64,000 bases of DNA. Origin: Bryum argenteum (taxonomy: Eukaryota; Streptophyta; Bryopsida; Bryales; Bryaceae). The stretch is taken from the NCBI GenBank assembly GCA_037043015.1, contig CM073323.1, positions 23,836,758 through 23,900,757 on the forward strand, read 5' to 3'. Shown piece after piece: positions 2,990 through 49,772 of the stretch. Under the pieces are notes generated by a model. The model saw only the letters and a program-made list of their open reading frames with translations. It did not search any database and was not told the origin of the DNA. How positions within the stretch are numbered: position 1 is the first letter of the stretch; the number at the start of each line of letters is the position of its first letter. A program made the position numbers and the translations under genes.

Positions 2990-3970
2990 TTAACCCTTAA
3001 ACGCCCACGATGTCGAAAAACGACATTTTGGATGTACATCAGAAACTTTGAAGAGCCATATCTTCTCCATCCAAGGTCCGTTTTGGATGAAATCACTTGG
3101 ATTAGGTTCCAAATCAAGTCTAGTTTGTGTTGTTAAATTTTCAAGCCCATACAATAAAGTATGAATTACTGGAATGCACTTTAGTGAATACAACTCTTGT
3201 TTTTGGGTTTCCAAGCATGGGGCATGTATTACCATTGCAAGCCAATTATGTGAAATTAAAAATAGTTTTTCATGATTTTTTTTTTCATGGTCATGATCTT
3301 AAGGTGATTCTTAACAACTTTGTAGTGAGAAGTTTTTTGATCCAAGTGATTTTGCTATTGGATTTGCAATGATGTTTTGTCAACAGAAAAAGTGAGAAAA
3401 TGGATGATATTTGAGGAGCTATATCTCCCTCATCCATCGTTGGATTTCAACTTAAATTTTTGGGATGGCCTCCAATTAGAGTCTACTCTAAGTGGTAGAA
3501 ACCTTAACAAGATCGAAGATGTTTTGAAGATAAGGCATGAAATTGAATGCAAAGGGTCTAGTTTTGGACTATTTTTCCTTTGTAAGATGTTCGGTAGTTT
3601 TTACCATTGCATGGCTTTTATTTGAGCCAAGAATTTTTTTTGATGAATTTTTGTTGGGTAAAGGACTTATTAAGATGAAGGTGAACATCTTTCTAGTTGG
3701 TGATTTTTTCATTGCAATAGGTATATTGGTAGCATTTTCACCTCAAAGTGAAAATGATGAAATTTTGCAGTTTGTTTTTAATATTAATATGTTATGATCT
3801 CCCAATCTATAAGGCCTCATGACTCAAATTTTGGTCCACATGATCTTCGATAAGTCTATTACAAGTTTGTACGGTTGAGATCTTAATAGCTTCTCTTGAT
3901 TTTCATACATGACGATTTCTATGGAAATGTGCTTTTCTGCTAAAAATAGGCTCGGGCGTTTAGGGGTTAA
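2990..3970. mobile_element. Family A element, full length, inverted
   Basis: About 980 bp bounded by TTAACCCTTAAACGCCC and GGGCGTTTAGGGGTTAA, with TTAA at both edges (2990-2993, 3967-3970). It is in the opposite orientation to 48793-49772. Short open frames within it are not protein-like. Confidence 0.75.
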
Positions 3971-5125
3971 GAAAGAAATCACTTACTACAAACAATGCAT
4001 TAAAACTTCAAAACCTTACATAACATGAGATGGGAGAGGACTTATTAATACTTCACACTATTGTACTCGTCATTTGCATCTCTTCATCCTCCTGAATGTC
4101 TCTTGATCATTCGATCTCTTTTGCCTCGATCAAACATAAATTTATTACCTTTAATTGCATTCGATCAAAGTAAAAATTTAAACCTTAAAACACTAACAAT
4201 CTATTCAAAAAACTCATAACATCATATGCAAGTGCAAGTATGATTTCTTGTAAGTAAAATTATCCCAATAGCATTTGTCATTTCGAAGTATCGTATATCC
4301 TGCTATTCTAGAATAACCTTCAAGCATGTCATAAAGAAGAAGAATATAAAATCTCAAAGATATTTCAACTGATGTTACAAAATGAAATCACTTGTGTTTA
4401 CAACACAAAACAAGCTAACCAAAACAAAACAATCAATGCACACTATCATATTAACAAAAGGCTAAAGTGAGAAAGAGCTTGATAATATCAAAATCATTCT
4501 AAATATTGAGAAACATTGAGAAACATTCAACTTCGATGCAAATCATGAGATAAAGATCATTAGAAACCATATTCAATAATTAGGGTAATTTCTAAGTCCC
4601 ATACACTCACTGCAAGCCTCTAATTCCTAATCACAAATCTGCAATGAAGCAATCCTACATACATAAATATCTACATGTTTGAGCCTTATTATTATACTCA
4701 TTCAAATTGTTCTTTATGATTATGTTTATTTATTTTGTCTTGTGAATATGAAGTTGTTGAGAGTTATTGCAAAAGAACACATCCAACAAATTTTTCTTGT
4801 CTGCGGTCAGGTCAGAAATTGTGTGAGCAACTTCGAGGCTACAAATCTTGAGGCTATATATGCTCTTGTACCGATGCATGCATAAAGTGGAAGTGATATG
4901 ATCCGGTAATAAAAGATTGAATCTTACATCGATGCCTGTGATCGAGGATAATCAGTACATGTGAGATTCGTTAAGATTGGATATGTAACCTCAAGTACGT
5001 GGAAAGATGGTGTATTCAAAAAGTAGGAAATGACAATGGGAAAGAAGATGATGGATATTATGGCAAGTTAAAAGCTCACTGCATGTGAAAGAATGGAGAA
5101 TTGAGGTTGTGTGACATTCCAGAGC
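3971..5125. other. Intergenic region upstream of the F-box gene
   Basis: AT-rich sequence without repeats that I recognise. A small open frame at 4679-4885 has no protein-like features. It probably includes the promoter and 5' UTR of the F-box gene, but I see no convincing TATA box. Confidence 0.5.
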
Positions 5126-6262
5126 ATGAGTAATGAAGACAAAGGCAATGCAAGCGAGGAATCTTCATCACCATGGAACAAGCTATCAGGAGAGCTTCAA
5201 GACAGGGTACTAGCATTCCTTCCAGTACTCGCATTCTTGAAGCTCCGAACGGTCTGCAAGAAATGGGCGGCATTACCATCCTCCCAATCCTTCCGGAACT
5301 TGTGCATGATGGTCTCTCCCCACCAAGCCTACCTCCTCGTCTGCCGAAGAGCACACACATTCTGCGTCGCCTACGACGAGTCTCTCAACAAATGGTACGA
5401 CATAAACCTCCGCTTCCTAGACCAGCTGTGTCTCCCCCACTGGAAATCACCCGTCGGCGATGTCTACCACTCCATCGAAGCAGCTTCCGGAGGCCTCTTC
5501 TTCATCTGGTCACACAAAAGCGACGGCGATCCCAGCTTATACAGTGTCTGCAACCCAGTGACGCGAGCATGGCGCAAGCTCCCATCTCTCCCCTACTACA
5601 TCGTCCCTCTCGCAGTCGCGATGATAACAAACCGCAACACTCTGGCGTACAAGATCTTCGTTGCAGCAGACTCCGCACCCGAGAGTTTTCTCAGTCCCAT
5701 GGCCATGCAGGTCTACGACTCCACGACGCAAAACTGGAGACGGTTGGGCCTCATGCAGCCGTTTCTGGATATTGTTTGGAGCTCTGCGATCTGCAATGAA
5801 GTTATGTACGTGCTCAGTTTCGATCCCTGCGATCTCTGGAGCTATGATCTGAACTTGGACGTGTGGAACAAGGTGGAGATTCAAGTGCCGTATTCGCTGT
5901 CCATGACTCTGCTTGTGAACTGCGGTGGAACTTTGTATCTGGTGGGGGAGGTTCGAGGTCGGAATCCGAGATGTATCTCAATATGGCAGTTTAACATGGT
6001 GGCGAGGACTTGTTTGGAAGTCTCCCAGATTCCGCAGCCTCTGTTTGAGGATTTCACGACTGATGAGACTTATGGAATGTGGTCTGCTATCGGACATAAC
6101 TCGGGGATTGCGTTCAAGAATGGTGTTATGAGGACGTTGATGTATAATGTTATCAAGGAAAGTGTGCATTGGCTTCCGGATTGTCAAGGCAATTTTGAGT
6201 ATGATAATGGGTACTCTGTGTATGGCCACTCCACCCCTTTACGATTTGAAGCTGAAGTGTAA
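5126..6262 (+). CDS. F-box/kelch-type protein
   Basis: Single-exon gene encoding 378 residues. Residues about 16-60 form an F-box (SPWNKLSGELQDRVLAFLP, then LRTVCKKWAALPSSQSF), the segment that binds SKP1 in SCF ubiquitin ligases. The rest contains kelch-like blade segments such as SLYSVCNPVTRAWRKLP, MQVYDSTTQNWRRLG and LWSYDLNLDVWNKVE, expected to form a substrate-binding propeller. The open frame begins at a GTG at 5111; I chose the first ATG at 5126. The bases just before it (gtgacattccag) resemble a 3' splice site, so a 5'-UTR intron is possible. The gene is richer in G+C than its surroundings, intact, and ends 155 bp before a CACTA-like element. The substrate cannot be told from sequence. 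The layout resembles plant single-F-box kelch proteins of the At5g15710/UFO type, but I cannot assign an orthologue. Confidence 0.9.
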   Translation: MSNEDKGNASEESSSPWNKLSGELQDRVLAFLPVLAFLKLRTVCKKWAALPSSQSFRNLCMMVSPHQAYLLVCRRAHTFCVAYDESLNKWYDINLRFLDQLCLPHWKSPVGDVYHSIEAASGGLFFIWSHKSDGDPSLYSVCNPVTRAWRKLPSLPYYIVPLAVAMITNRNTLAYKIFVAADSAPESFLSPMAMQVYDSTTQNWRRLGLMQPFLDIVWSSAICNEVMYVLSFDPCDLWSYDLNLDVWNKVEIQVPYSLSMTLLVNCGGTLYLVGEVRGRNPRCISIWQFNMVARTCLEVSQIPQPLFEDFTTDETYGMWSAIGHNSGIAFKNGVMRTLMYNVIKESVHWLPDCQGNFEYDNGYSVYGHSTPLRFEAEV

Positions 6263-7830: not shown

Positions 7831-7866
7831 TATAAACATTGAATTAGGAATTTTTGCACTTGGCCA
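7831..7866 (+). repeat. Left terminal inverted repeat of the giant transposon
   Basis: Matches the reverse complement of 21772-21807 at 35 of 36 positions. It is followed directly by AAGTGC, so that GCACTTGGCCAAGTGC (7856-7871) is a perfect 16-bp palindrome spanning the inner edge of the TIR. Confidence 0.85.
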
Positions 7867-8180
7867 AGTGCATTGTCCGGTAGCCATGTCGGTGCAAAAT
7901 TTGCACCTTTTTGAAATTTTACTCCCCTGAAATTTCATATATTTTCATTTTCAAAATAGCAACAACATATTCATTTATATTATAATTTCCATGTATTAAA
8001 AGAAAATCAAACATAATGTACTATATTTTTTTATTACTATACTATAGAAAATAAAAACAAAACGCTTCATTCCACATATAAATGAAGACACACAATCCAC
8101 GCATTACAAAGTAGATAATATTTGCACTATCCTACTACATCAAAAAAGGTTCTACCTACATTACTTTCCCAATCATACTA

Positions 8181-9070
8181 CTATTCCATCTCTTGGGTCT
8201 CGGAATCACTTGAGAAGACTCGCCTTCTACCTCCTCTCCTCGTTTCGCTCTCTAACCGTTGGTCCCTCATTAGTGCTCTAATCTCGGAAGGGGTTCCGGA
8301 TCGCATACTCAATGCTCTCGTGACCATAGCTTCCGCCACTGGAGATGAAATATCACCCGCATTCAAGTCACCCTCCAAAATTGAGGCGACTTGCTCGTAT
8401 GTGTAGTTTCCATCTTCTCCCACACGACGGTACTTCACTCCCTCAAGATCATGATATAATCCGTCATCTCCAAGTATCATATGATGATTTGCCAAAGCCC
8501 ATGCAAATGACTGCGTCGTAGACTCCGTACCAGTAGTCACTCCATGTGAAGGTAACACCACTGAGCTTGGTGCAGCAATGATATCTGAGAACGAAGTTGC
8601 TGCCTCCATAGATTCCTCGCGTACCTCTGGAACTTCAGAGATACCAGATAAAGTACTCTGGAATGTAGCCTCTATCCCGACAACTCCAGTTGTTGGTTCT
8701 TGTGCCACAATGCGCTCCTCATTCTTGTCAATATGCTCCTCGGTCTCCTCAGCCGAAATGTACACGTCCTTTGAGGCTAATGACTCATCTTCTGCGTCAG
8801 ATGAATTTCTTGGATTATAAGACTCGTCATCCGAAACATCGTCTTCTTCGCCGAGAATCCACGTGGTGCCCCGAGTCTCTCGATGATGTATCTTGGACCG
8901 CAAACTTTCGCCATCCACCTCTTCATCGTCCCCGCTTCCTTCGAACTCCTCTATCGGATCCTCCAAATAGTTATCGGAATCATTCTGGGAATCATCATCA
9001 GACTCATCTTCGGAATCACCATTTGATTCATCCTCCTGTTCTTCGTCATCTGCCTCCTCCTCGTCTCTAG
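8181..9070 (-). pseudogene. Gene 1 segment, acidic Ser/Asp/Glu-rich C-terminal part
   Basis: Open frame of about 295 codons without a credible ATG, so it is the 3' part of gene 1. It starts with a strongly acidic run (RDEEEADDEEQEDESNGD, continuing with many Asp, Glu and Ser) and finishes with a short basic RRGGRRRVFSSDSE end. The arrangement (acidic, probably disordered region then basic tail) suggests a chromatin- or histone-facing segment, but no family is recognised. The stop codon is only about 310 bp from the left TIR. Confidence 0.5.
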
Positions 9071-9129
9071 GTTGTACAAATGAGAGATAGAAGCACGTTC
9101 AACACCGGCCGTAGGAATTACGGTGGATG

Positions 9130-9802
9130 GCCTGCGGTATTTCCGATATCATCACTGCGTATCATCCGCAACTCAATCAAATACCTCTTGTAATGTGTTG
9201 TACACAAAACGTGTGCGAGTAGATGAACTATCCAAGACAATGACTTGATCGCCGACAAATCCATCCCCGCACAATGTCCCGCAATGGTCACGTCGTGATA
9301 CCCAGTGCCACTAGCCCCCACTCCTCAGGTAAATACGCCTTCACGAGCCTACACAACTCCAATGGCGATCTCTCCAATCTGTCTGCAGCTCGTGGCATCC
9401 TCTCTTCGTCCCACCTGTCAAAAAAGGCCAAAGGCAAGCTCTCCGTACTCTGCCGTAGATTTGGTATAGCACTCGAATCCTTCGAAACGCATTAGGATTC
9501 CCACATCTCCGATAGGGTCGCATACGACGCTCCACTTCTCTCCCATGCACTAGATCACGCACATTTGTCGTCACCGTCTCTGATTGAAATATCCATACGC
9601 CTCGTCTTGTAGTGCTATGTGGAGGCACCACCATCAACTCCCGCATCCTCTCGTCAAAGTCTATTCCGACAGGAAACAAAAACACCGCATTCCATCTATG
9701 AACTCCTGCCATCCACTTCTCGCGGTAGCTCAAAGACCTCTTGTAGTCCACATCTCGTCCATGATACATCTTCTCCTCCCATGCCTCCTCGCCCGCAATC
9801 AA
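9130..9802 (-). pseudogene. Gene 1 segment, conserved block before the acidic tail
   Basis: Frame-shifted stretch of gene 1. One frame gives MVVPPHSTTRRGVWIFQSET and RRMRPYRRCGNPNAFRRIR (9802-9341), then LVKAYLPEEWGLVALGITT just downstream. After a one-base shift the frame reads DHCGTLCGDGFVGDQVIV and STRTRFVYNTLQEVFD (9290-9190). The two parts look like one continuous domain interrupted by a single-base indel near 9290. No catalytic motif of a known enzyme family is evident to me. Confidence 0.5.
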
Positions 9803-10387
9803 ATATCCATAGACAAGGTTGTCCTATCTCCACGACCTCATTCCCGAAAAAAAACCTCCCCTACATCGAATAGGAAGTTGACTCGTCTTTGCTTCCTCCT
9901 ACAAAGACGCGCACTTGTACCTGCCAATCCCATGGAGCACTTCTAATGTTTGCAACCCCTCTCCGATATCCTTCATATCCTGTACCTCCGGCAACAATGC
10001 TGGAATAGTGTTGCTTGATCGTTGGAGGTATGAGATGTTCAATTTTCTTCAATGCCTTCACAGTCTTCACGTTGGAGCAAATTTCACGCATTCTTCATGG
10101 ACTTGTCAACATCGGAACCCAAGACTTGGAATTGGCGATGCTCTCTGCCTCCAAACTTATCTACCGAAATGGCAAAGAACTCTGACATTGACTTTGGTCG
10201 CTCCTCCCCAGACTCCACCAACATCCACCGCAATGCATTTCGGACGGCTTCGCCTTTGAATCCGATCCACCACCCAGGCTAAAGTCCGCCGGGCTTTGTA
10301 CTTGAAGCGTTGTTGAAATAATATTTTTGTTTGGTCGCTTTCCATCCACATCGCTTTCGTCTTTTGCCATGCTCGAGCAAGACTCAA

Positions 10388-11173
10388 TCATCTTCTGGGA
10401 ACCCTAGATAAAGGTCTCAACCAAAGCCGTTCCATCCTTTTTCGATCTTTACGCACGTCCACGTTGCGATCCAATGAATGCTTCTTTGCATATTTCTCCC
10501 ACTTCTTCTCATCCTCCTTGCTGTACCAAATCAATCCCTCCTCGTAGTCCTTGCACACTTGGAGGACAGCCTGGTAGCACTCATCATCCTCATGCCAAGC
10601 ATGTCGTGTAATCTCTAGCATCCGCTTTGCCATCTTTCCCAACGGTTCAGACTTTCCCACGAGCGATACAGTCCAATGTAACGCACTTGCTGACATTGCA
10701 ACCGCCCTCGCCCTTTGAGCATCATCCGATCGAATCTCATGATTCGGTCTATCACATGCCTCCCAAATGGCCCGCAGTTTCACCATATCCTCGTACAAAG
10801 TCGTGTAGAAGTGTCGCTCAAATTCCCTCGCGTTTATTCTCACCGATGCCTCAATATACAACTGTGGATTGTTGAATACGATGAACCGTGCCTTCCGCTG
10901 CGCATATGTTTTGTTGAAAGTCCTTGTGGACAAACGTCCCTCCCGCTGTTCCGTTTGTGCTTGTTTACAAGCTGCTACAATGTGTTGGCCATCCACCGGC
11001 TCCCAGATAATGTGGTTCCGCAACCACTCCATCCTACGCATGTTGGGTGCAATTGGATCTGCCATCACATATCTCGAATAAGCGACCTCAAATTCTGCCG
11101 CACACAACATGGTGCTGCTTCGAAATTTCACCTCTCTTTCTTTGCCTTTGACCATCCAAACCAATCGGCTCAT
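10388..11173 (-). pseudogene. Gene 1 segment with ParB/sulfiredoxin-like VDGQH motif
   Basis: This uninterrupted 261-codon stretch is the longest intact part of gene 1. It contains IIWEPVDGQHIVAACKQAQ, which resembles the DG(Q/H)HR..A nucleotide-binding motif of the ParB/sulfiredoxin fold, although the arginine is replaced by isoleucine. It continues with RFIVFNNPQLYIEASVRIN and a charged helical C-terminal half rich in Lys, Glu and Arg. The reading frame breaks at its end (near 10388) and continues in another frame with AWQKTKAMWMESDQTKILF. The ParB assignment rests on this single motif and should be treated as tentative. Confidence 0.5.
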
Positions 11174-12495
11174 CTACTATGTAGGCAATGGGTCGAAGTG
11201 TAAGGCACGTAACAAGAGGCTCATCTGACCCGGCTAGTCGATGATACATAAGCCTCACACGTTCATCCAATAAACAACAATGGTTTGTCTCCACATTTTC
11301 TCTCAACGAATGTGGTCAATCGAACATCAAAATCGCATCCATTCCCCAAATATACCCAAATTGATACTCTTCATCCGAGGAAATGATAGCAATTTTCCTC
11401 TTGATGTTCCACCTCTTGGAATATGAACACCTTCATCACCATGGGGACCACATCAATGTCCTCGACTTCCTCTTCGTTCTCGCCCGACTCCCTCCAACAT
11501 GTTGTCTTCGTGGAGCGTTCGTTTGAGTACTAGCTATTGGAGCAGATCATAGCCCTTCGAACACGAGGTTGAGCTAGAGTCTCCATCCGAGCCGACGTCC
11601 TCGTCCCAAGTCCCTCAAAACCCATTGTTTCGAATACTTGCTCCACCCTCACCGCCGATGACTCCCCTTGGACTACTCACAGGGACCCCACTTCCTTGCT
11701 CTAGGCCTATATAGAAGAAGATGACAACCGCGGTCCTCTCATTGAAGAAATAATCCTTTGTGTGGATACATCTCGTGTTCGTCTTGGTGCTTCCATAGTA
11801 CATTCGGTTGATGCTCTCGGTGGTGCTTCATCGGTCCCTCACCCGAACCTGCGGGATGCACTAGCCGTGGGTGGTGTAGGTTCCACAAAATCTTGAGCGG
11901 GATCGTGTCTTTGGCGCCTTCGAGACTCTTCTCGCTTGTTTGATACCCAATTCACGTTGATACCGATGCAAGAATCCTATAGATCGGATCGATTTCTTAC
12001 GTTCCCGCAACGGAGAAGGATCTTCCGAATCGTGAGGCAACTCCCTTGCCGCTTCCTCGTATCTTTGTGTGCTCTCCCGAATGACCTTTCCGAACTCTTA
12101 CCACATCTTGTGGGGTAAAAGCTTTGAACTTCACGACGACATCTCACGTCTTTGTCTAAGCTCCTCGGGCATAGTAGACCATAGTACCTTTAGAGGCTTC
12201 AAGCCCCTCAATGGTGAATTGATTTGAGCAACGCCTCCGAACAGGGGGCCATCATAAACTTCTTTTGCATCCTGATTTTTGTCATTGGTTCGTTGTCTGC
12301 TTTCACCGAAAATATCATAACATCGTTCGGTGCGGTACCAATAGATAGTATCTCTCCAAACAATGTACCCAACGTTGCCCAACGTCGTCCTTCTCGTACG
12401 GCCTACTCTGTTATCCACAACATGGGTTTGAGTGGATTTTCGGCCTCAATCCACCATCCATGCTCCTTCCACTCGTTTAGAATCTTCGGCGCCAT

Positions 12496-13139
12496 AACTG
12501 TACAAAGAAAAAAAATTAAACACACAATTACTACTTCAAACGTTTAAATTATGTATAACATTGGTCGATATGGGAATGCATTCAAGATTAAAGAATATCA
12601 GTACAGAAAACATCAACACAACAATTATTGATTCAAAAAACAAACGATTACCTTAAAAGATTTATAGAAACCAAAACTATTCTAAGATTTATAAATTAAT
12701 GAAGTAATTTTTTTTAAAGAACTAGTAAATATAATCACAATATACAAAACCTAAAAATTGAGATTACAAACAATATATTTTAATAGCCATCTAGTTTATT
12801 TATATGTATTTCCTACATGCCTTTTTTGTCTCATTATTTTACATTAAAGTAAAAGAAATTTCGTTCTCCAAATTAAAAGATATCAATTTTAAAAAAAAAC
12901 TTATACAATTTAAAATAAAATCTTTTTTTTCTTTTTTTTAAAGCAATTCCTTTTACTCTTTCTTTAAAACCTTCTAATAAAACTACAATTCGATCTACTA
13001 TATTGCTAAATCTAGTAGCGAAAGTCTTAAATTTTGAGAACCGAACATCAAATTTGAGTGTCGCTAACCTCTACTAGCAAAAACAAATTTTTTTTTTCTT
13101 TTCAAATTATAAATAATTACGTCAAATTTCAACATTTAG
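12496..13139. other. Gene-free start of the giant transposon spacer
   Basis: Very AT-rich. The first 30 bases next to gene 1 contain a polypyrimidine tract and ACAG acceptor on the minus strand, so part of this stretch may be an intron of gene 1. Confidence 0.4.
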
Positions 13140-14760
13140 GCAAAATACTTGGTCAATTGAGTAGCTTCTGACATTTTTCTTGAAAGCCAAACATTGAATT
13201 TGGTACCTTCAAAGGTTTAAAAGCCATATAGAAATCTTGGATCTTCAAATCGTTAAAAAAAAAAACATCTTTTATGCAATAGTTGCTAAATTTAGCATGT
13301 TGTGATATTCGGTTTCCAAAACCCAACATCAAATTTAGTGCCCCGACACCCCTGCAAGTCCTACCAAGTTTTTGGATCTTCAAATCCTAGAAGAAAACCT
13401 CAAATTTGATTGTTTATGCAGAAAGCTGCTAAATTTAGCAGGTTGTGAGTTTGATTTCGGAAACCCAACATCAAATTTGTTACCCCGAAACCCCTACAAG
13501 CCCTAATGAGTTTTTTAAACATCAAATCGTGGAAGAAAATATCAAATTTGATCACTCATGCAAAAAGTTGCTAAATTTAGTAGGTTGTGAGTTTCCAAAA
13601 ACCCAACATCAAATTTAACCCTTGCAAGTCCTACAAAGTTTTTAGACCTTCAAATCGTAGAAGAAAACATCAAATTTGATGGTGTATGTAGAAAGTTGCT
13701 AAATTTAGCAGGTTGTGAGTTTGATTTTGGAAACCCAACATCAAATTCGGTACCCCGAAACCCCTACAAGCCCTAATGAGTTTTTCTATCTTCAAATCGT
13801 ACAAGAAAACATCAAATTTGATCGCTCATGCAAAAAGTTGCTAAATTTAGCAGGTTGTGAGTCTCCAAAACCCAACATCAAATTTAACCTTTGCAAGTCC
13901 TACTGAGTTTTTAGATCTTCAAATCGTAGAAGAAATCATCAAATTTAATGGTGTCTGTAGGAAGTTGCTAAATTTAGCAGGTTGGGAGTTTGATTTCGGA
14001 AACCTAACATCAAATTCGGTACCCCGAAACCCCTACAAGCCCTAATGAGTTTTTCTATCTTCAAATCGTACAAGAAAACATCAAATTTGATCGCTCATGC
14101 AAAAAGCTGCTAAATTTAGTCGCTTCTGAATTCGATTTCAAAACCCAACATCATTTGGTACCCTCAAACCCCGCAAACCTTAGCGAGCTTTAATCGTGGA
14201 AGAAAACATCAAATTTGATCAATTATTGAAAAGTTGCTAAATTTAGCAGGTTGTGACTTTGGTTTTGAAAACCCAACATCAAATTTGGTACCCCAAAGCT
14301 ATTCAAGCCATAGCGAATTTTTTATTCTTGAAATCGTGGAAAAATACACCAATTACGCAAAAAGTTGCTATATTTAGAAGCTTTCGACTTTAGTTTTGAA
14401 AACCCAACATCAAATTCGGTACCCCCCCCCAAACGTCTACATGCCCTAGCGAATTTTTTGTTCCTCAATTGTGGAATAATTTTTGAATTATGCAAAAAGT
14501 TGCTAAATTTAGCAAGTTGTGACTTTAGTTTCAAAAACCCACCATCAAATTTGGGTGTCCTAAACCTCTACAAGCTTTAGCGAATTTTTTGTTTCATAAA
14601 TCGTTAAAAATTTGTGAGTTATGCAAAAGTTGCTAAGTTTAGCAGGTTGTGGCTTTATATTTGAAAACCCAATATCAAATTCGGGTGCCTCAAGCCTTAA
14701 GAAATTGTTTGTTCCTCAAATTTGGTTAAATTTGAACATTTGACATGCAAAAAGTTTACA
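13140..14760. repeat. Tandem array, about 11 units of 126-144 bp with CTAAATTTAG core
   Basis: The motif GTTGCTAAATTTAG (or GCTGCTAAATTTAG) recurs near 13281, 13425, 13567, 13694, 13837, 13963, 14106, 14232, 14363, 14499 and 14629. The spacing alternates mainly between about 143 and 126 bp in the better-conserved middle part, which suggests a higher-order dimer. Each unit also carries AACCCAACATCAAATT and an ATCGTAGAAGAAAACATCAA-like segment. The array fills the spacer between the two genes of the giant element. Small open frames inside it are products of the repeat. Confidence 0.85.
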
Positions 14761-15107
14761 AAAATACCGAATTCAAAAGAAATAAAGCTTTACCTGCAGT
14801 TGTAATGACTTCGAATGCTCCTTCCAATGAATCACACCTACAAATATTTGAAAAAATAAATGTTAAAAACATCTCTCCTTTGTATTTTTAAAGAATTGAT
14901 GAAAAGTTCAATCAAAACATGTCATACAAATGGCTATATATGAATCTTTCCAATCAAAATCTTGTGTCATTTGCAAAAATCAAAGTGCTGAGAGCAATAC
15001 CTTTGAGAAGAAATATGTGAAATGTGACTTTTCAAGTGGGAGGGTGGACCTTATATAGTTTGAATTAGTAGTTGTTTTTTTTTTTTAAAAAAAATAAAAA
15101 ATTGCTT

Positions 15108-15135
15108 CCAACCCCGCGGAGCTCCGCGGGGTTGG
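15108..15135. repeat. 28-bp perfect GC-rich palindrome
   Basis: The two 14-base halves 15108-15121 and 15122-15135 are exact reverse complements with no spacer. The core is CCGCGGAGCTCCGCGG. It separates an AT-rich stretch from the GGCTGGCC array. Confidence 0.85.
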
Positions 15136-15335
15136 GAAAGGCAGCCGGCAGCTGGCCCGGCCGTGGCTGGCCTGGCCTTGGCTGGCCCGGCCTTGGCTGG
15201 CCGCCTTGGCTGGCCCGGCCTTGGCTGGCCTGGCCTTGGCTGGCCTGGCCTTGGCTGGCCGCCTTGGCTGGCCCGACCTTGGCTGGCCGCCTTGGCTGGC
15301 CCGGCCTTGGCGGGCTGCCTTGGCTGGCCGGCCAT
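15136..15335. repeat. GC-rich GGCTGGCC/CCTTGGCTGG minisatellite
   Basis: Irregular tandem repeat made of 10- and 15-bp steps such as CTTGGCTGGCC, CCGGCCTTGGCTGG and CGCCTTGGCTGG. Short outliers of the same motif occur at 15449-15460 and 15552-15580, separated by long T-rich low-complexity tracts (15335-15760). The long open frames across it are compositional artefacts. Confidence 0.8.
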
Positions 15336-15459
15336 TTTTTAAATTTTTTTTATTTTTTATTTTTTATTTTTTTATTTTATTTTTATTTTATTTTTTATTT
15401 TTTTAAATTTTTTTTTATTTAATTTTTTTGTTTTGTTTTGTGTGTGTGGCTGGCCGGCC

Positions 15460-15497
<38 letters not shown>

Positions 15498-15764
15498 TTG
15501 TTTTTATTTTTTTTAAATTTTTTTTGTTTTTATTTTTTAATTTTTTTTTTGTGGCTGGCCCGCCTTGGGTGGCCGGCCTAGGCTTGCAGCGGTGGTTTTT
15601 TTTCCTTTTTTATTCTTTTTTTTTCCTTAAATTTTTTTTAAATGTATTTTTTATTTTTAGTTCTCTTTTTTTCTCTCCCGATTTCCAAATCTTATTTTTA
15701 ACTCATCTCTTCTCCCTTCTTCTCTTAATTTTTTTCTTTTTTCTTTTGCTTATTTTATGTTATA

Positions 15765-15999
15765 CTAGTACGGTCCCCGTCGTACCGACGGGGAAGCTCT
15801 TTATTTGGTACTTTTAAAAAATTATTCCAAGTCTCCCATTTCCTCGTTTCTTATTTTTATAAATGCCCATTTTTTTTTTATATATGCTCGTTTCTTATTT
15901 TTATATATAATATTCACTTAAATCCCATAGTAACACTCACTTAACTCCCACTTAACACTTGTTTGCCTCACCAAACGGACAATCAAATTATATTACATG
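15765..15999 (-). mobile_element. Helitron-like remnant inside the giant transposon spacer
   Basis: On the minus strand the element would end with hairpin CCCCGTCGGTACGACGGGG followed by ACCGTACTAG, the Helitron 3' signature (hairpin then CTAG). The opposite end is proposed at GA|T near 15999, next to CCAAACGGACAATC, which resembles the same position of the 58799-59226 element. No rolling-circle replicase is present. Confidence 0.45.
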
Positions 16000-16502
16000 A
16001 TTAGGTTTTTTTTTCTCTTATATATAGTTTGTAATTTTTGAAGAATTTATAGAATTGTTTGTCTAATGTTTCATTCAATCAATACTAAAAGAGATGGGTT
16101 TTGTTAAACCATGTATTGTGGAATTTTTTCAGGTGACATGGGACGAATGAAGTGTGAACTGGCAAATGAAACACATTTCATTATGTGATGTACGGTAAAA
16201 CAATTTCACCTATGTTGTATGTAAATTAGAATAGGTCAAAGTTTGAGAATACTATTTAAATTTCAGTGTGGAATTGCTATTAAATTTGTCACTTCACAAT
16301 TTAAGCAACCCTAAAATCCCTAAATGTCACTACACTTAAAATATTGCAAAGTTAGTCTCATAAGTGTTTTCATCCATGTGAATGCATGAATGGATGATAA
16401 TTATGGTTTTGTGGTGTTTTTATCGGACTTTGTACTTGGTTACGTCCGACTATTATGATACAAAATCCATTGTTAGTGTGTTCACATCATTTCAGGTATG
16501 TT

Positions 16503-17078
16503 TAACCCCTAACTATCCTTTAAAGCCAAAACGGCTTTTTTCTATTTTGGGCAGTCTAGATGAAAAAAATTACTAAGTGTTCTTCAAACTACAAGGTGTA
16601 TGTGCAAAAATTGGCAAAGTTAGATTCTAATTTTTGAGTTTTTGAATGCAAATTTTAGTTTTCAGCCTCTAGCGTGGCAGATAAAACTTTTTAATTTTGA
16701 GGTTTTATTGAATTTTGTTTTTGGTGATATTTTCTTAATCAAATCACTACCTAAGTTCCAAAGTGCCTCTAATAAAAAATATTACCAATTTCACAAGGGC
16801 AGCCTTCAAACTTTATAGAGCAAGCTTCGAAGTTTTTAGAATTTTTAGTAAAAACTTTTGCGCAAACTTTGGATGTTATAATCTCGAAAATGGTAAAGAT
16901 CCAACGGTGAAATTTTAGAGCAATGACTAAGAATAGGCTTAATTATTAGATCATACAATTTGGAATCTAAAGTAAATAAATAAATTTGGTTCACACTCTC
17001 GGAAGTGCATAGAGGTAGAAAATTGTAGTTTTGAGGTTTCAAGCTCCAAAAATACACAAGGAAAATTAGGGGTTAAAT
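16503..17078. mobile_element. TTAACCCC-ended repeat inside the giant transposon spacer
   Basis: Bounded by TTTAACCCCTAACTATCC and AAATTAGGGGTTAAA. The right part (TCGGAAGTGCATAGAGGTAG, TTTTGAGGTTTC) is the inverse of the start of the 37926 repeat. The insertion shows that the giant transposon itself has been a target for this superfamily. Confidence 0.55.
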
Positions 17079-18239
17079 AGTGCTCTATTTTCAAGTGATG
17101 ACTAAATTTTTGCACAATGTCACATACACAGAAGGTGATCTATTGTAATATTGTGCCCATGTACAATAGTATAAAACTTTTGTACGTGAAATGAATGATA
17201 ATACGCATTATTTCAATACAAAATGAATAATCATTATGGAATTCAACCAAAAAATTCACAGTAAACATCAACATAGGGCTCCGTTGCATTGGCTTTGGGA
17301 CTTATAAAACAAAGAGTATGATTTTAGTGCACAAAACGTATCTAGCATCGAAGGTGGTAATACCAGAGTTGTATGTCCACACTTGTGATGACATACGTCA
17401 CTCTATTCCAAAAATAATTTCAGTCCATGAACATGTTTAATATGTTGGCAATTATCCTAAGAGCAACCCCGAAGATCAATGCATGGGTCCTTTAACCTCA
17501 AGATCAGATGTCACTGTATTATTAGCTCATAATTGAATCACCAAATTAAGCTACGGACATAATTGTAATTAAACTTGAATGAATTCTTGCACCGCACGAT
17601 TATGCACTCATAAAATACTTCTCGGTTATATTGAAATGGAAATTAAAGGTTCAAAATTGCTTCAAAATTCCTCATGCTTTAGGAGATATTCACAAATCAA
17701 AGTTTGAGAACACAATTTGAAATCTGCCTAAAAGTGCCGAAATTGCAATATATGCTCATTTATTCTCAAAATTTCCAGTAGATCAATTGAAATGCAAAAT
17801 TTTTGAACATTCACCAAAATTTGAGATTTTACGTTTTATCAAGTTCTAATTTTTGGGCATCTAGAAGAGGTACCAAGACATGATCTCACCGTTTAGATTT
17901 CCAATTCAATAATTTTTAACATGCCTTTTTTTATTGTCAAAGACCGGACTTTCTATTTATTTAATTTTTACCTCCACACCTCCATGTGAAAAAACGGTAT
18001 TTTCTCTATGTTTAATAGGGCCTATGAGGGTAAAAATTATGTAGACATGTACCTAACTCACTTAGGAAGAAGAATTTGAAGATACTCATGTCAATTTTTT
18101 TCTATAAATTGGTATTTTTGGCTCACAAGTAGTATGTTATTTCTATTTTTTGAATGTGAAATTGTTGAATGTTTTTGTAGTAAAATGGATCACTGAAGGT
18201 GAAGTTAGGATAACCATTTTATTTGGAGTGGGAGAAAAA

Positions 18240-18908
18240 ATGGACGGGAGAGCATTTGGAAGTCCTGTGGCTGCGGTGAATGCAATGACACGTCCACCAA
18301 GAAGTGTGGGAGAGAGAATTATCCGAGCTACTCGCATCCGACTATTTCAAGAACCTTCTCCATCGACACAACAAGGCGCGGAAGTCCGAGAACGAGGCAA
18401 TGTGGAGCTTCTAAATGCAAACAACATTGTTGTTGGGACGGGAAAGATAGACAACAGCCTTAAATGTGGAATGGAGTTAAATGCGGTGAAGTTATGTCCT
18501 TTTGAAACTGCTATCCGTGTTGTGGACGTTTATGATGGCTCTGTATGGACAGGGGAACTTGTTGGAGAACGCTTAAGCGAATGTGTGGGTCATACCATAC
18601 GATGGGAGAAGGCACGTATACGTACTATAGAGGGGACGTCTACGAGTATAGGCGAATCAAGTGGAGGACAAAATTTCTCATTTCCTGCAGTTGTAGCATC
18701 GCAATTTGAGTTTGAGGATGAAGTTACGCATTCCAACCACTCAAATAGTGTATCAAACATCCCAGAGGACTTTGATACTATATGGAATAGGTCTCCTATG
18801 ACAGAAGGTTCACGGTGTAGCACCGAAGAAATCCCTCGTGTTGACGGTTTACCAATGGAGACCCAAACGAGGCGTTATCGTATGCAAAACCGTAGAAGGC
18901 GAGTCTGA
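18240..18908 (+). pseudogene. Gene 2 N-terminal segment
   Basis: Intact 222-codon frame that precedes the first frameshift. It starts MDGRAFGSPVAAVNAMTRPP and includes ELVGERLSECVGHTIRWEKA. I see no catalytic motif. It is probably an N-terminal regulatory or DNA-binding region, but this is only inferred from position. The frame is also open back to 18150, without a better start. Confidence 0.5.
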
Positions 18909-18914
18909 CGCCAC

Positions 18915-19691
18915 GTGAGAGGGGAGAACCATTGGGCCAAAAAGTTACATTGGATAGTATTTTGGCAGCAAAAAGAGAAGGGGGGGTGCAAAAAAAACTG
19001 TTTGAGGAATGTGGATGAGAAGTACATATTAGACCAACGGTATATGGCATGGGGTCAAAAGTATGAGCAACGCGCGACATGGATTTTGCAGATGTTGAAT
19101 GCGTTCTACTCGCGAACGGAGGGGATAAGGAGGGACAAGTTCAAGACAAAGTTGGATGGCTTGGACGTGTGCAATGCATGTTATGCAAAAGCCCTTGGAT
19201 ACTCTCAAAGGCGGTTCAAACAATTGAAGGTGTCTCACCAAGTATATGGAAGAGTTACAGCTGTGCACGGAAACACGTGCAAGCTAAGAGAAGGTGCAAA
19301 GATGTCTGCAGCACGTGAGTGTTTCGGGGAGTTTGTGAGAGAAGCTGGTTGTACACAACCGCATCGACAGATACGGCGGAAGTTGGACAATACCATCGTG
19401 CCTCTGATTTTGTTGCCTATGAACACAACAAAGACGGATGTGTTCTACTATGTGAATGAGGAGGTGAAGAAGATGGTTGATGGGGAACCGCTTTCAATTA
19501 CTTCATTTCATAGATTGTGGCGTACTGAATTTCCACATGTTCAAATACCGCCATTTTCTAGATTCTCAAAGTGTTATCATTGTTGGGAATATAAGTGTGG
19601 AATGGAGGCGACTACTAATGCAAATTGCAAGAGTGGAGATCAAGAAGTTGTATATCGTGCACATCAATCATCAAATGGAAGAAAGACGTGA
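18915..19691 (+). pseudogene. Gene 2 segment with cysteine pairs upstream of the catalytic core
   Basis: From about 19000 this frame reads smoothly as protein: LDGLDVCNACYAKALGYSQ, then VAAVHGNTCKL-like TAVHGNTCKLREGAKMSAA, PLILLPMNTTKTDVFYYVNE and FSKCYHCWEYKCGMEATTN. Two Cys pairs (CNAC and CYHC, followed by C) could form a zinc-binding module ahead of the RNase H-like core. The frame is lost near 19640, and the sequence continues in another frame with a glutamine- and arginine-containing helix (MEERRDSWLFKR) and SLIVDGMD. Confidence 0.55.
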
Positions 19692-19729
19692 CTCTTGGTT
19701 GTTCAAGAGGTCGACAATGATAACTCCCG

Positions 19730-20299
19730 ATTTCTACATGAGTTTGATTGTAGATGGCATGGACCGAATACGACAATGGTTCCGAAGATGAGGCGGAGAC
19801 GGTGAAGAAACATAGAGTCAAGATTTGTGAAGACTCATTTGTGTGGGGTACTTGTGCACGGGATTGGTTTGTATGCCGATGTTTGGATAGATGCACACCA
19901 CAAGCACGACAAAGAACCAAGTGATTACGACAGGTGATGCATGTGATTGCCGACGTGAAGAAGAGGAAGGAAAATTGGCGCCGACATTGCGAATTCAAGC
20001 GGATAACACAACCGGTGAGAACAAGAACATTTACATGTTTGCCATGTGCGCATCACTTGTGGGATTGGGGTTCTTTAAGGAGGTGCAACTTTGTTTTCTT
20101 GTTGGTGGGCCACACACACGAAGATATTGACCAACGCTTGAAGATCATATCGAACACGTTGAAGAGAACAAACATTGACTCATTGAAACAACTTCTCGAA
20201 TCGGTGGAGAAAGGCTCATCGTATCTGAGGGCCTTTGTGAGTGCAAGACATTTAGAGAATGTGAGGACTGGAAATCGTTTATTACACCTCATCTTTTAA
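19730..20299 (+). pseudogene. Gene 2 catalytic-core segment (DUF7869 motifs)
   Basis: Reading across three frames gives SLIVDGMD, then THLCGVLVHGIGLYADVWID, then QADNTTGENKNIYMFAMCAS, then FLLVGHTHEDIDQRLKIISN. These acidic and histidine motifs in this order are typical of DUF7869. One in-frame stop follows the MVPKM segment, and single-base shifts occur near 19930 and 20095. The catalytic-looking residues themselves are all still present. Confidence 0.6.
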
Positions 20300-20336
20300 C
20301 AGGCGATGCACTCACCGCATAACCTTCCCACACCAC

Positions 20337-21394
20337 ATGAGATTTTATATGGAGAATGGTGTGCCTCGCGTACAATACAAGCATTTCAGCAAGGACGTAT
20401 GGGAGCCAACAGAGGGGCATTTGTGTTTACGCTCCGTGCCGAGCGTGTTGGAGAAGCCTGATTTGGCGAAGGTGTTTGGTGCGGATGAGAGGGAGTTGAA
20501 AGCCCTAGATGAGTTTATTGGATACAAAGAAAGATGCGTGGAGAGATTACAGAATGTAGAGAGCAACTGGGAGGCCATTGAGGAAGTGCAATGGTTGGCG
20601 TCGTATCTAAAAGAGTTTCCAAATATCAACAGGGATGCTGAGAGGGCAAAACCATTCTGGGTAGAGGAGCCGGGAAGAAATTCAAATGCGATGACTGAAC
20701 CGGATGGAGTAATTGAAGGGGACAATGATACAATGTAGTGAATACGAGGTTGGTTTAATCATGGCAACTATGCCAAATCCGGAAGCTCGACGGTACTTTG
20801 GTCCTCGCAGAGGAGACCTTCATCGATGGCCGTGACAACGACACCGAGGAGAAGAGTCATGGTTGCTATGGATGGAGCAAGAACCACAACATCTACCGTA
20901 GGAGCTGAAGATCCCTTTCCACCGTTCAATCCGGAGAGACATTAGAGTTGGGCATTTTGTGGCTCTCACCGTAGAACCGAAGAGAAGTGCGGTGGTGTGT
21001 ACCTTCTATGTGGGGAAAGTGTTGGAGTTTGGACAAGGCAAATGGGCTACAAAGATGAAGATGGTGTGGTATTGGCCCGTGAGAAGACGGGGAATGCAAG
21101 ACGAGCGGGATTCTAGCGGAGCGAGATATACGAATGCATGGAAGCATTTTGGGAGCCCTCCGGAGAGGGACACGGATGGGTTGTCAAAGATGCGGCTATA
21201 TTTTCATGGGAAAATGCACCAATGACAACAAGGAGTGGGCTTGTACAAGAGAACAATGTGCGAGTGCATGGCGAGCTTACGGAGGCAAGGATCAAAATTC
21301 CAACTGAAGCAAAACCGCATTTGGTGGAATATATTGCACTACAATTGGAAGAGATGGATAATGAACGTTTGCAGAATGACCTTGATGCATATTA
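20337..21394 (+). pseudogene. Gene 2 C-terminal segment
   Basis: After another shift the frame 20337-20738 encodes FYMENGVPRVQYKHFSKDVW and a helical region, followed from about 20940 by VGHFVALTVEPKRSAVVCTF and VLEFGQGKWATKMKMVWYW, and in a further frame by WVVKDAAIFSWENAP and the final KPHLVEYIALQLEEMDN before the stop. The beta-rich segment around 20940-21200 could be a small chromatin- or DNA-reading domain; that is speculation. Confidence 0.5.
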
Positions 21395-21771
21395 ATATGT
21401 TTAGTACGTCGTACGAGAGACATGGTACATGGAGTTGTGTTATGTAGCAACAATAGTTGTATAGTATAGCGCAACGTGCATGAGTGGTTTGAATAACATG
21501 ATGTTTTGGTAGAAAGATATCCTAAACTTTGTATCTATTTTGACTATCATGTTTAATACATTGGTTTGGAATAAATGGAGAATCAATTGCATCAAATTAA
21601 AATGCATGTGTGACCAAATATGCATGATTGAAGTAAGCTGAAACCCCAAAATTCCCATTTTAACACTTCCTAAATTATCGGCCTACAAAACCCACGATTA
21701 CCAAAATTATACCCCCCATCAATTTGAAAAATGTCAGTTTCTATTCGACGGGCGACAAGTGCATTGTCAAA

Positions 21772-21807
21772 TGGCCAAGTGCAAAAATTCCTAATTCAGT
21801 GTTTATA
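21772..21807 (-). repeat. Right terminal inverted repeat of the giant transposon
   Basis: Inverted partner of 7831-7866, with one C/T difference. Inside it, at 21757-21768, lies AAGTGCATTGTC, a 12-mer that also occurs at the left end (7866-7877). Confidence 0.85.
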
Positions 21808-26878: not shown

Positions 26879-27846
26879 CCCGGAAATGTCCCTAGTGTCG
26901 AAATATCAAACAAAATTTTGGATGAAGGGCAAGAACATTGAAGAGCCATGACTCCTTCATTCGGACCCCATTTTGGATGGAATCACTCGGGTTAGGCTGC
27001 AAATCAAGTCTAGTTTTTGTGGTAAAAATTGCAGACTTGTACAATAAAGTATAAATAAATTACTTGCATTTAGTGAAGGCAGGTTTAGTTTTTGGGTTTT
27101 CAAACATTTGGCGTCTTTTACCATTGCAAGCTAATTTTGTGAGATCATAAAAAAAATTCATGAATTTTTTACAAAAGTGTGCTCTGTAGATGCATCTCAA
27201 CAACTTTGTAGTTGGAATAATTTTGATCCAAATAACTTTCATATTAGATTTGCAATCATGTTTCTACAATGAAAGAAGAGAACAAATATATGATTTTTGA
27301 GTAGCTAGATCTCCTTCATCCACCGTTAGATTTTGACTTTATTTTTTGGTATGGATTCGTTTATTTAAAGTCTAGTTCTAGTGGTAGAATGGTTGACCCT
27401 ATCAAAGATGTATTGAGGATAAGGCACAAATTTAAGTGCAAGGTGTATAGTTCTGGACTATTTTTCCTTTGTAAACTGTTCGGCACTTTTCACCATTACA
27501 ATGCTACTATTTGAGAGAAGATATATTTTTAATGTTTTTTTTTTAATACAATTGAGTCTTTTAGAGGTAGCTAAACAACTTTCTAGTTGGTGATTATTTG
27601 AGTGCAAATTTCATGTTGGTAGTATTTTCAAAGTGAAAGTGATGGTTTTTTGTAACCAGTATTGTACATTAAAACATTGTGATCTTGCAATCTGTAAGGT
27701 CCCGTGAGTCAAGATTTGGTTCACATGATTGACAACAAGTCTATTACAAGTTTGTATGATTAAGATCTAAATCGCTTATCCTAAATTACATCCATGCCAT
27801 ATTTTTCAAAAATGAGTTTTTGGCTAAAAATACCCCAAGGTGTATA
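26875..27846. mobile_element. Family A element abutting the EMC3 promoter
   Basis: Inverted-orientation copy starting at TTAA 26875 (TTAACCCGGAAATGTCCC) and fading out near 27846 in TTTTTGGCTAAAAATACCCC, the inner sequence of the other terminus. Its eroded end lies about 155 bp before the EMC3 start codon. Confidence 0.7.
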
Positions 27847-27964: not shown

Positions 27965-27973
27965 TTAGGGTTT
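27965..27973 (+). promoter_or_regulatory. Telo-box (TTAGGGTTT) upstream of EMC3
   Basis: TTAGGGTTT, the complement of AAACCCTAA, sits 29 bp before the EMC3 start codon, inside the roughly 160 bp of unique sequence between the upstream repeat and the gene. Telo-boxes are common near transcription starts of plant housekeeping genes. Function here is inferred from position only. Confidence 0.45.
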
Positions 27974-28001
27974 AGTGACAGGATCGATCGGAGCTGGAGC
28001 G

Positions 28002-28763
28002 ATGGCGAACGATCTGGTGCTCGACACGCAGATCCGCGACTGGGTACTCGCGCCCCTCTCGGTTTTAATGGTCCTCATCGGCGTACTCCGCCACTTCGTA
28101 TCAAAGATGATGCGGACAACCCCAAACCCCGACCTGAAAGCAGTAAAAGAAGGCCAAGTCGTTCTCCGCGCGCGTTACCTCAAGGCCGGGGCGAATTACA
28201 TCCCCGCTCGCTCCTTCCACGCACGCAAGCTCTACTACAACAACGAGGAGAATGGACTCCTCCACGTACCAAAGGGGCAAGCCAACAACGCCCAAGCGCA
28301 GATGTTCTCGGACCCTAACATGGCCATGGACATGATGAAGAAGAATCTGTCGATGATCGTACCCCAGACCCTCACTTTCGCGTGGGTGAACTTCTTCTTC
28401 TCGGGGTTTGTCGCTGCGAAAATCCCGTTTCCGTTGACGCAACGGTTCCGCTCCATGCTTCAGAACGGGATCGACCTTAGCTCCGTGGATGTTAGCTATG
28501 TTAGCTCCCGGTCGTGGTACTTTTTGAATCTTTTTGGACTCCGGGGATTGTTCAGTCTCATTCTGGGGGAGGAGAATGCGATTGATGATACGCAGCGGAT
28601 GATGCAGACGCAAATGGCGATGCAGATGGGGGGAATGGGGGCTGATCCTTCTAAGACGCTTGGTGCTGAGAAAGATGGCTTGGATTTGGTCCAGCATGAG
28701 TGGGCGCTTCCCAGGAGTGAGCAACGGGCTGAGTCTGTGTTGAGGACTCTTCTTAAAACCTAG
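28002..28763 (+). CDS. EMC3: ER membrane protein complex subunit 3 (EMC3)
   Basis: Single-exon gene for a 253-residue protein, close to the usual plant EMC3 length. EMC3 is the Oxa1/YidC-related core subunit of the ER membrane complex, which inserts tail-anchored and multipass proteins. Three hydrophobic segments are visible: residues about 14-33 (WVLAPLSVLMVLIGVLRHFV), 118-139 and 172-188 (WYFLNLFGLRGLFSLIL). Between the first two lies the conserved basic, amphipathic cytosolic region containing RARYLKAGANYIPARSFHAR, and the C-terminus is soluble and methionine-rich. The open frame extends up to a GTG at 27975, but the ATG at 28002 opens the conserved N-terminus (MANDLVLDTQIRDW). No intron is needed. 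A telo-box lies 29 bp upstream, and a large repeat ends about 160 bp upstream, leaving a very short unique promoter. Confidence 0.97.
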   Translation: MANDLVLDTQIRDWVLAPLSVLMVLIGVLRHFVSKMMRTTPNPDLKAVKEGQVVLRARYLKAGANYIPARSFHARKLYYNNEENGLLHVPKGQANNAQAQMFSDPNMAMDMMKKNLSMIVPQTLTFAWVNFFFSGFVAAKIPFPLTQRFRSMLQNGIDLSSVDVSYVSSRSWYFLNLFGLRGLFSLILGEENAIDDTQRMMQTQMAMQMGGMGADPSKTLGAEKDGLDLVQHEWALPRSEQRAESVLRTLLKT

Positions 28764-40854: not shown

Positions 40855-41340
40855 AATTGGTTTGACTCATTTGTAGCACAATGAACGCATTCTCATAAAA
40901 AGTGTCATACATGGAAGCAAATGGAAGATATTCAGATCTCAGTCGTACAATCTTGTAGTAGAAACATTGTACATCATGTGGATCAAATTTTGAGTCATGA
41001 GGGCACATAGATTGCAAGATCATAACATATTAGTACTCAAATAACATCTCAAAATCTTTGTGTTTTCACTTTGAAGTGAAAATGTTACCAATAGACTTAT
41101 TGCAATAAAAAACCCACCAACAACGAAGATGCTTACCTTTATCTCAATAACACCCTTGGACAAAAACAAATCCATGAAAAATTCCTTTCCGCAAATAATG
41201 GCCTTGCAATGGTGAAACCCGCCAAAAAATATTCAAATGAATAGCAATCCAAAACTCCATCCTTTACATTCAAATCTATGCCTTATCTTCAATACAACTT
41301 TGATTTTGTCAAGGTTTCTACAACCAACTCGAGACTCTGC
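40855..41340. repeat. Family A repeat, partial copy
   Basis: Has CTAACCCCTAATTGG at the left, then TTTTGAGTCATGAGGG, TTTTCACTTTGAAGTGAAAA and ACCAACAACGAAGATG in family order. It is truncated near 41340, about 60 bp before a SINE. Confidence 0.6.
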
Positions 41341-48792: not shown

Positions 48793-49772
48793 TTAACCCC
48801 TAAACGTCCTTGGGGTATTTTTAGCCAAAAACTCATTTTCAAAAAATGATATAGATGAAAATGAAGATAAGCTATTCAGATCTCAACCGTACAAACTTGT
48901 AATAGACTTGTAGTAGATCATGTGGACCAAAACTTGACTCATGGGACCTCATAGATTGCGAGATCATAACATATTAGTGCGCAAAACAAGCTACAAAATA
49001 CCATCATTTTCACTTTGAAGTGAAAATACTACCAACATGAAATTTGCAATCAAAAAATCAGCAACTAGAAAGTTGTTCATCTTCATCTCAAAGACGCTCT
49101 TGTACCAAAAAAAATTCATCAAAAAAAAATCTTGGCTCAAATAGTAGCCTTGTAGTCGTGAAAACTGCCAAAAATTTTACAAAGGAAAAATAGTCCAAAA
49201 CTAGACCCCTCGCACTCAAATCCATGCCTTTTCTCCAATATATCCTCGATTGGGTCAAGGTTTCTACCACTAAAAATAGACTATAATTGGAATCCATCCC
49301 AAAAAATAAAGTCAAAATCTAACGGTGGATGAAGGAGATCTAGCTCTTCAAAAATCATCCATTTTTTCACTTTTTTCATCGTAGAAACATCATTGCAAAG
49401 CCAATACCAAAGTTATCTAGATCAAAAAACTTTCAACTACAAAGTTGTTGGGATGCATCTAAATATCAAACCTATGAAAAAAAATTCATGAAAAACTATT
49501 TTAGATTTCACATAATTGGCTTGCAATGGTAAAACATGCCAAATGTTTGAAAACCCAAAAACAAAAGCTGCCTTCACTAAAACCCGTGCCATTTATTCAT
49601 ACTTTATTTTAATGAGTCTGCAATTTTTACCACATAAACTAGACTTGATTTGTGACTTAACCCAAGTGATTTCGTCAAAAACGGAGTTTGGGTGAAGAAG
49701 TTATGGCTCTTCAAAGTTTCTGCCCTTCATCCAAAATGTCATTTTTTGACACTAGGGACGTTTAGGGGTTAA
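48793..49772. mobile_element. Family A element, complete reference copy (piggyBac-like ends)
   Basis: About 980 bp with TTAA at both edges (48793-48796 and 49769-49772) and inverted termini CCCCTAAACGTCC / GGACGTTTAGGGG. The interior carries an imperfect palindrome TTTTCACTTTGAAGTGAAAA. TTAA target plus CCC-starting inverted ends fits non-autonomous piggyBac elements. No coding potential. Confidence 0.75.

Follow-up and report, generated by a model that had tools for sequence, protein, structure and literature searches.

The described transposons closest to the locus analysed here are those of the Sola superfamily, which carry a DDD transposase, make a 4-bp target site duplication (TSD), measure mostly 2–9 kb with some members above 15 kb, have variable ends and occur in Physcomitrella (PMC10741241). 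The TSDs described for Sola2 are AT-rich 4-mers such as ATAT (PMC3627910), and a Physcomitrella Sola1 is listed in a table of a further paper (PMC9033089). Two other groups of terminal inverted repeat (TIR) transposons bear on the comparison, namely KolobokP and other Kolobok lineages, in which a DDD/E transposase is accompanied by an accessory protein (PMC9587614), and the plant EnSpm/CACTA elements, some of which contain additional coding sequences (PMC9033089). Here we consider an element of about 14 kb in a 64,000-nucleotide stretch of the moss Bryum argenteum (assembly GCA_037043015.1, contig CM073323.1, positions 23,836,758 to 23,900,757 of the forward strand; hereafter the window, in which position 1 is the first letter). 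The element carries two outward-reading genes, one for a DUF7869 protein and one, gene 1, for a large partner protein. With considerable confidence, we regard it as a recently mobile class II (TIR) transposon in which the DUF7869 protein is likely a DDD-type transposase and the partner is conserved.

Element borders, copies and target sites

Alignment of the genomic copies to one another establishes the borders of the transposon at window positions 7835 and 21803. Its ends are 32-bp TIRs (AACATTGAATTAGGAATTTTTGCACTTGGCCA at 7835–7866 on the plus strand and AACACTGAATTAGGAATTTTTGCACTTGGCCA at 21772–21803 on the minus strand) that match at 31 of 32 positions and are flanked by the 4-bp TSD TATA. 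The left copy of the TSD (7831–7834) is placed by the copy alignment, with the joined flanks matching window repeats over the junction, and the right copy (21804–21807) by the copy alignment together with the empty-site comparison. The original prediction, made from the letters of the window, had located the inverted ends at the right place but gave them 36 bp with 35 matches, because TATA is its own reverse complement. When the TIR pattern was searched for in the 258.8-Mb genome with up to three mismatches allowed, it was found at 26 places, as against none for a reversed control.

Ten genomic places, the window included, pair both ends within 11.0–14.2 kb. Nine of these (again with the window) are near-full copies of 13.55–14.23 kb that are 97.3–98.7% identical, and their tree is star-like, with long terminal branches (0.5–1.5%) and short internal ones (0.1–0.5%), which together form the pattern given by a transposition burst. 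The tenth place (C7:6.22 Mb, 10.96 kb) is a relative whose ends are 91–92% identical and whose TSD is exact; most of gene 1 and of the DUF7869 gene is missing from it, and the other DNA that it contains has reading frames that look like those of a nested Gypsy-type retrotransposon. The TSDs are exact in nine of the ten pairs (TATA, AAAA, CCTT, ATTC, CTTG, TAAG, TCAT, AATG and TTAT), the copy at C7:4.72 Mb being the sole inexact case. For two right ends, at C7:3.11 Mb and C10:14.01 Mb, the TIR searches found no left partner. A 1.7-kb end pair on C2 was considered as a small derivative and rejected, its flanks being mirror images and not direct repeats.

Further, an empty site can be recovered. 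When the flanks are joined after removal of the element and one TATA, the resulting sequence matches seven window copies of an interspersed repeat across the junction (67–72% identity, expectation values (E) of 5e-56 to 3e-14); the alignments are gapped elsewhere, and the two best have no gap at the junction itself. The uninterrupted repeat at 48918–49309 (plus strand, 72% identity) serves as a paralogous empty site, and further copies of the target repeat lie at 3457–3843 (minus strand), 40974–41181, 108–285 and 27429–27728. Since the match runs across the point of insertion, the element was inserted into a repeat that was already there. This insertion target is a diverged interspersed repeat that recurs through the window.

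Related families and the divergent gene pair

Two further families of elements carry the same two genes. Family 2 was traced from two open DUF7869 genes, and its ends (AACACARTATTGAGGAAAACCGC...) have 81 matches in the genome against none in the reversed control. Pairing adjacent, inward-facing ends less than 30 kb apart gave 24 pairs, and 12 of them contain a DUF7869 match among those scored, facing an end 1.30–1.54 kb away; the count is the same whether 16 chosen DUF7869 places or all 150 scored ones are used. These 12 gene-bearing elements measure 7.0–24.5 kb, with 11 of them falling between 13.4 and 24.5 kb. Among ten pairs tested, the TSD is exact in eight, and the other two agree in three of the four bases. 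The family-2 element on C9, the only one read on its left side, has gene 1 on the expected strand (about 30% identity, best E 1e-70), although this copy of gene 1 is itself broken.

Family 3, with ends AACACGCAATTAAGCAATTAYGCACTTG, has 365 end matches in the genome and, again, none in the reversed control. Its elements on C5 (12.95 kb) and C2 (14.86 kb) hold both genes in long open frames between matching ends, with flanks TAAA/AAAA and TAAT/TAAT, respectively, so that the TSD is exact in one of the two. Pairing was done among 100 listed ends of the 365 and gave 12 pairs, nine of which are 3.4–6.4 kb long; many family-3 elements may thus be without the genes. In these two families, the open frames are intronless and reach 1,099 amino acids (aa; two copies), 1,125 aa and, in a protein that lacks the N-terminal part, 974 aa for DUF7869, and 1,402, 1,405 and 1,411 aa for gene 1.

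The outermost AACA[CT] is common to all three families, the sequence further inward is similar among them, and families 2 and 3 resemble the window family in their AACAC-type related ends, their 4-bp TSDs and the outward orientation of both genes. Two hallmarks of a class II element are present, with TIRs at sharp borders in the window family and in families 2 and 3, and with a TSD of fixed length and a recoverable empty site. The original prediction had named as evidence against itself a genome in which TIR pairs elsewhere never enclose both genes; in the genome as searched, eight other near-full window-family copies, together with elements of families 2 and 3, do enclose them.

The association of the two genes extends beyond the window family. 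A profile search of the genome gave at least 150 DUF7869 matches (150 of 1,811 candidates being scored), and a query made up of 731 aa of gene 1, taken from a single window-family copy, gave 66 matches (61 of 419 candidates being scored). The gene 1 matches merge to 54 loci, nine in window-family copies and 45 outside, and a scored DUF7869 match lies within 20 kb at 28 of these 45, in the outward-divergent arrangement in every one of the 28. By comparison, random placement of DUF7869 in 1,000 trials, using a rough size of 7 Mb for contig C11, paired 1.07 gene 1 loci on average and never more than 5. Moreover, pairwise ratios of nonsynonymous to synonymous substitution (dN/dS) are 0.265–0.299 for gene 1 (three pairs) and 0.276 (family-2 pair) and 0.143 (family-3 pair) for DUF7869, so that both genes look to be under purifying selection; from this it would seem that both proteins were kept functional across rounds of copying.

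The DUF7869 protein and its partner

Within the window copy, the gene for the putative transposase runs over 18240–21395 on the plus strand, counted from the first fitting methionine, and gene 1 over 8181–12504 on the minus strand, 12504 marking the start of the N-terminal match. The predicted outward orientation of two long loci is borne out, but the frames of both are interrupted here; those of gene 1 lie at 8181–9098, 9341–9823, 10388–11173 and 12131–12445 (all minus strand), plus shorter pieces. The stop codons, expected 310 and 380 bp from the ends, were measured close to those values, at 346 bp for gene 1 (8181–8183) and 408 bp for DUF7869 (21393–21395). The window copy as assembled looks inactive, because both frames are broken.

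The identification of DUF7869 proved sound, in that Pfam PF25273 matches above its curated cut-off, with E 6.6e-12 for one broken window frame and 9.7e-51 for the C7:4.65 Mb copy. Between families 2 and 3, the DUF7869 proteins share about 40% identity across 1,039 columns; a divergent group, B, shares 26–28% with them in the core. Group B is frequent, notably on contig C1, where many weaker profile matches lie, and has open frames of up to about 1,000 aa (examples are C8:7437786-7438214 and C3:10323644-10324072).

In particular, three conserved aspartate motifs suggest what the DUF7869 protein may do. All nine aligned DUF7869 sequences, from both groups, have the aspartates in QxDN and GHTHxDID, and those of DxMD are kept in the five of nine that reach that far; the glutamate of GHTHEDID is replaced by aspartate in two of the nine. 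In the window, GHTHEDID, with the proposed third catalytic aspartate, is at 20108–20131 (plus strand). RNase H-like DDD transposases have their catalytic residues on strand beta1, on beta4 and after beta5, and the order and spacing of the DUF7869 aspartates would fit these positions. Other Pfam transposase domains gave no match over the cut-off in the scanned element proteins. Protein and alignment searches of viral and prokaryotic collections found no DUF7869 relatives, plant relatives lying outside those collections; a scan of the same collections with a degenerate motif gave a single hit, which was judged to be due to chance because its frame contains many stop codons.

The partner is characterized by a core, WEP.DGQH...(A)CK, present in five aligned gene 1 sequences from three families, in all of which the DGQH motif is invariant (10982–10993, minus strand, in the window). 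The core may be read as a ParB/DGQH motif at the motif level only, and the ParB label originally given to gene 1 is not upheld by profiles: scans of the gene 1 frames against Pfam at E up to 10 gave no ParB match, and ParB_N (PF02195) matches the whole genome once, at E 1.49 and away from the listed gene 1 loci. Towards the C-terminus, a stretch with DCRxG... and R(S/T)PxEL... is reminiscent of a decayed methyltransferase; the N6/N4 methyltransferase profile PF01555 has 32 matches in the genome, all of them away from the listed gene 1 loci. Those PF01555 places (e.g. C4:20498341-20498493, C9:1179242-1179334 and C6:17233241-17233348; best E 6.6e-4) mostly share one short motif region, such as PREK..LF.QALIE.L.KPGDIVLDW.AGTG, and may represent a further gene family that is repeated in this genome. 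Searches of gene 1 against Pfam, NCBIfam, phages and plasmids gave no significant match. A PDB profile search with its middle part returned 41 sequences (best E 0.0015), with ribonuclease A making up almost the whole list and a designed protein also present; they were judged spurious because the top entry owes its score to two 9.8-bit stretches in an alignment that ends before the DGQH core; the same search with the C-terminal part found nothing.

We propose that the DUF7869 protein, most likely a DDD-type transposase, would excise the element after binding its AACAC... ends and integrate it, through a 4-bp staggered cut, into mostly AT-rich targets. The 1,400-aa partner would most likely be needed for transposition or regulate it, for example in end recognition or complex assembly. 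The claim that DUF7869 is the transposase of a giant two-gene transposon thus holds as regards the recurring gene pair; the transposase role itself we infer from the aspartates, the position and the association, and the DDD chemistry, transposition by cut and paste and whatever the partner may do are likewise put forward as parts of this proposal.

Several observations weigh against it. The frames are broken, at differing places, in all nine window-family copies, where the longest open stretch is 731 aa in gene 1 and 549 aa in DUF7869; the breaks could reflect either decay or misassembly of repeats that are nearly identical. Twelve of the 24 family-2 pairs (0.8–18.7 kb) are without any scored DUF7869 match, as are 11 of the 12 family-3 pairs formed among the 100 listed ends, the C5 pair being the exception. 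Additionally, 17 of the 45 gene 1 loci outside the window family have no scored DUF7869 match within 20 kb, and these may be fragments or have their partner among the candidates that were left unscored. Group B accounts for many of the DUF7869 matches, and the element ends and gene 1 described here are those of the three families. Finally, PDB sequence searches with the DUF7869 protein gave either no match or unrelated ones (best E 1.4).

As for the rest of the window, the interior of the element (12550–18100) holds only low-complexity reading frames among those of at least 90 aa. It includes degenerate repeats with units of about 135 and 270 bp (13138–14734), the number of which varies between copies and within which five of the nine copies have a 268–269-bp deletion, together with GGCTGGCC-type units that form a GC-rich array (about 15136–15343) adjoining a T-rich stretch. 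A greater density of private indels in the genes than in the interior was dropped as an observation, being true in five of nine copies only (2.3 versus 1.9 per kb overall). Outside the element are host genes for an F-box/beta-propeller protein (5105–6262, plus strand) and an EMC3/TMCO1-like protein (27969–28763, plus strand; 2.6e-50).

Relation to described transposons

To which superfamily the element belongs can be argued in two main ways. There is an even chance, in our judgement, that it represents a giant two-gene subgroup of Sola, with DUF7869 as a Sola-type DDD transposase: what is described of Sola in the cited papers fits both the 4-bp TSDs and the conserved DUF7869 aspartates. However, this likeness is one of description, and the same descriptions contain no divergent partner of 1,400 aa. 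Somewhat less probable, but still to be taken seriously, is an undescribed superfamily, which 4-bp TSDs and AACAC ends would define together with DUF7869 and its partner. Consistent with it, the literature searched, published under CC0, CC BY or CC BY-SA, a scope that leaves Repbase aside, mentions neither DUF7869 nor PF25273 nor any of four variants of the HTHEDID motif, and the partner has no significant match in Pfam, NCBIfam, phages or plasmids; this literature negative extends only as far as the papers searched, however, and the features listed would fit Sola as well. Between these two, we find Sola slightly more likely.

A bolder form of the second proposal is that DUF7869 marks an undescribed superfamily of giant (13–24 kb) two-gene transposons with an obligate, ancient partner, the ParB-like DGQH middle and decayed methyltransferase-like C-terminal side of which would derive from a ParB–methyltransferase fusion, transposition needing it as a DNA-clamp or DNA-reading factor. 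This we consider unlikely. It is more improbable still that gene 1 is catalytic and DUF7869 accessory: both genes are conserved and constrained, and 17 of 45 gene 1 loci stand without a scored DUF7869 nearby, but an RNase H/DDD-like order of invariant aspartates is seen in DUF7869 only, and candidate places in the genome are far more numerous for DUF7869 (1,811) than for gene 1 (419). That the locus is a segmental duplication or a host gene cluster and no transposon hardly deserves credit, for although the copies are long and near-identical, the precise ends, the TIRs, the 4-bp TSDs at different sites and the empty site contradict it.

If our reading of the element as a transposon with a DUF7869 transposase is right, it would give a function to DUF7869, a Pfam family of unknown function, and would offer a two-protein system open to testing, and annotated DUF7869 genes of this kind would be transposon genes and not host genes. 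This genome has many of these large elements, some with frames still open, and through them it can be tested how the ends are recognized, what the second protein does and how the elements relate to Sola.

Compared with the described systems, the element departs from EnSpm/CACTA, which has a 3-bp TSD and CACTA-type ends: the TSDs here are of 4 bp and the ends begin with AACA (AACAC), and Pfam found no CACTA transposase domain in the scanned element proteins. With Kolobok, as described in the source cited above, it has in common a second protein beside a DDD/E transposase, here a putative one; Kolobok TSDs, however, are TTAA only, as in piggyBac, whereas those of the window family and family 2 vary between sites and are not confined to TTAA. 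From Sola, it differs in its conserved, divergently transcribed partner of about 1,400 aa, which the Sola descriptions drawn on here do not mention, and it resembles Sola in residues that would fit a DDD site, in a 4-bp, mostly AT-rich TSD, in its occurrence in a moss and in a size range in which some members exceed 15 kb.

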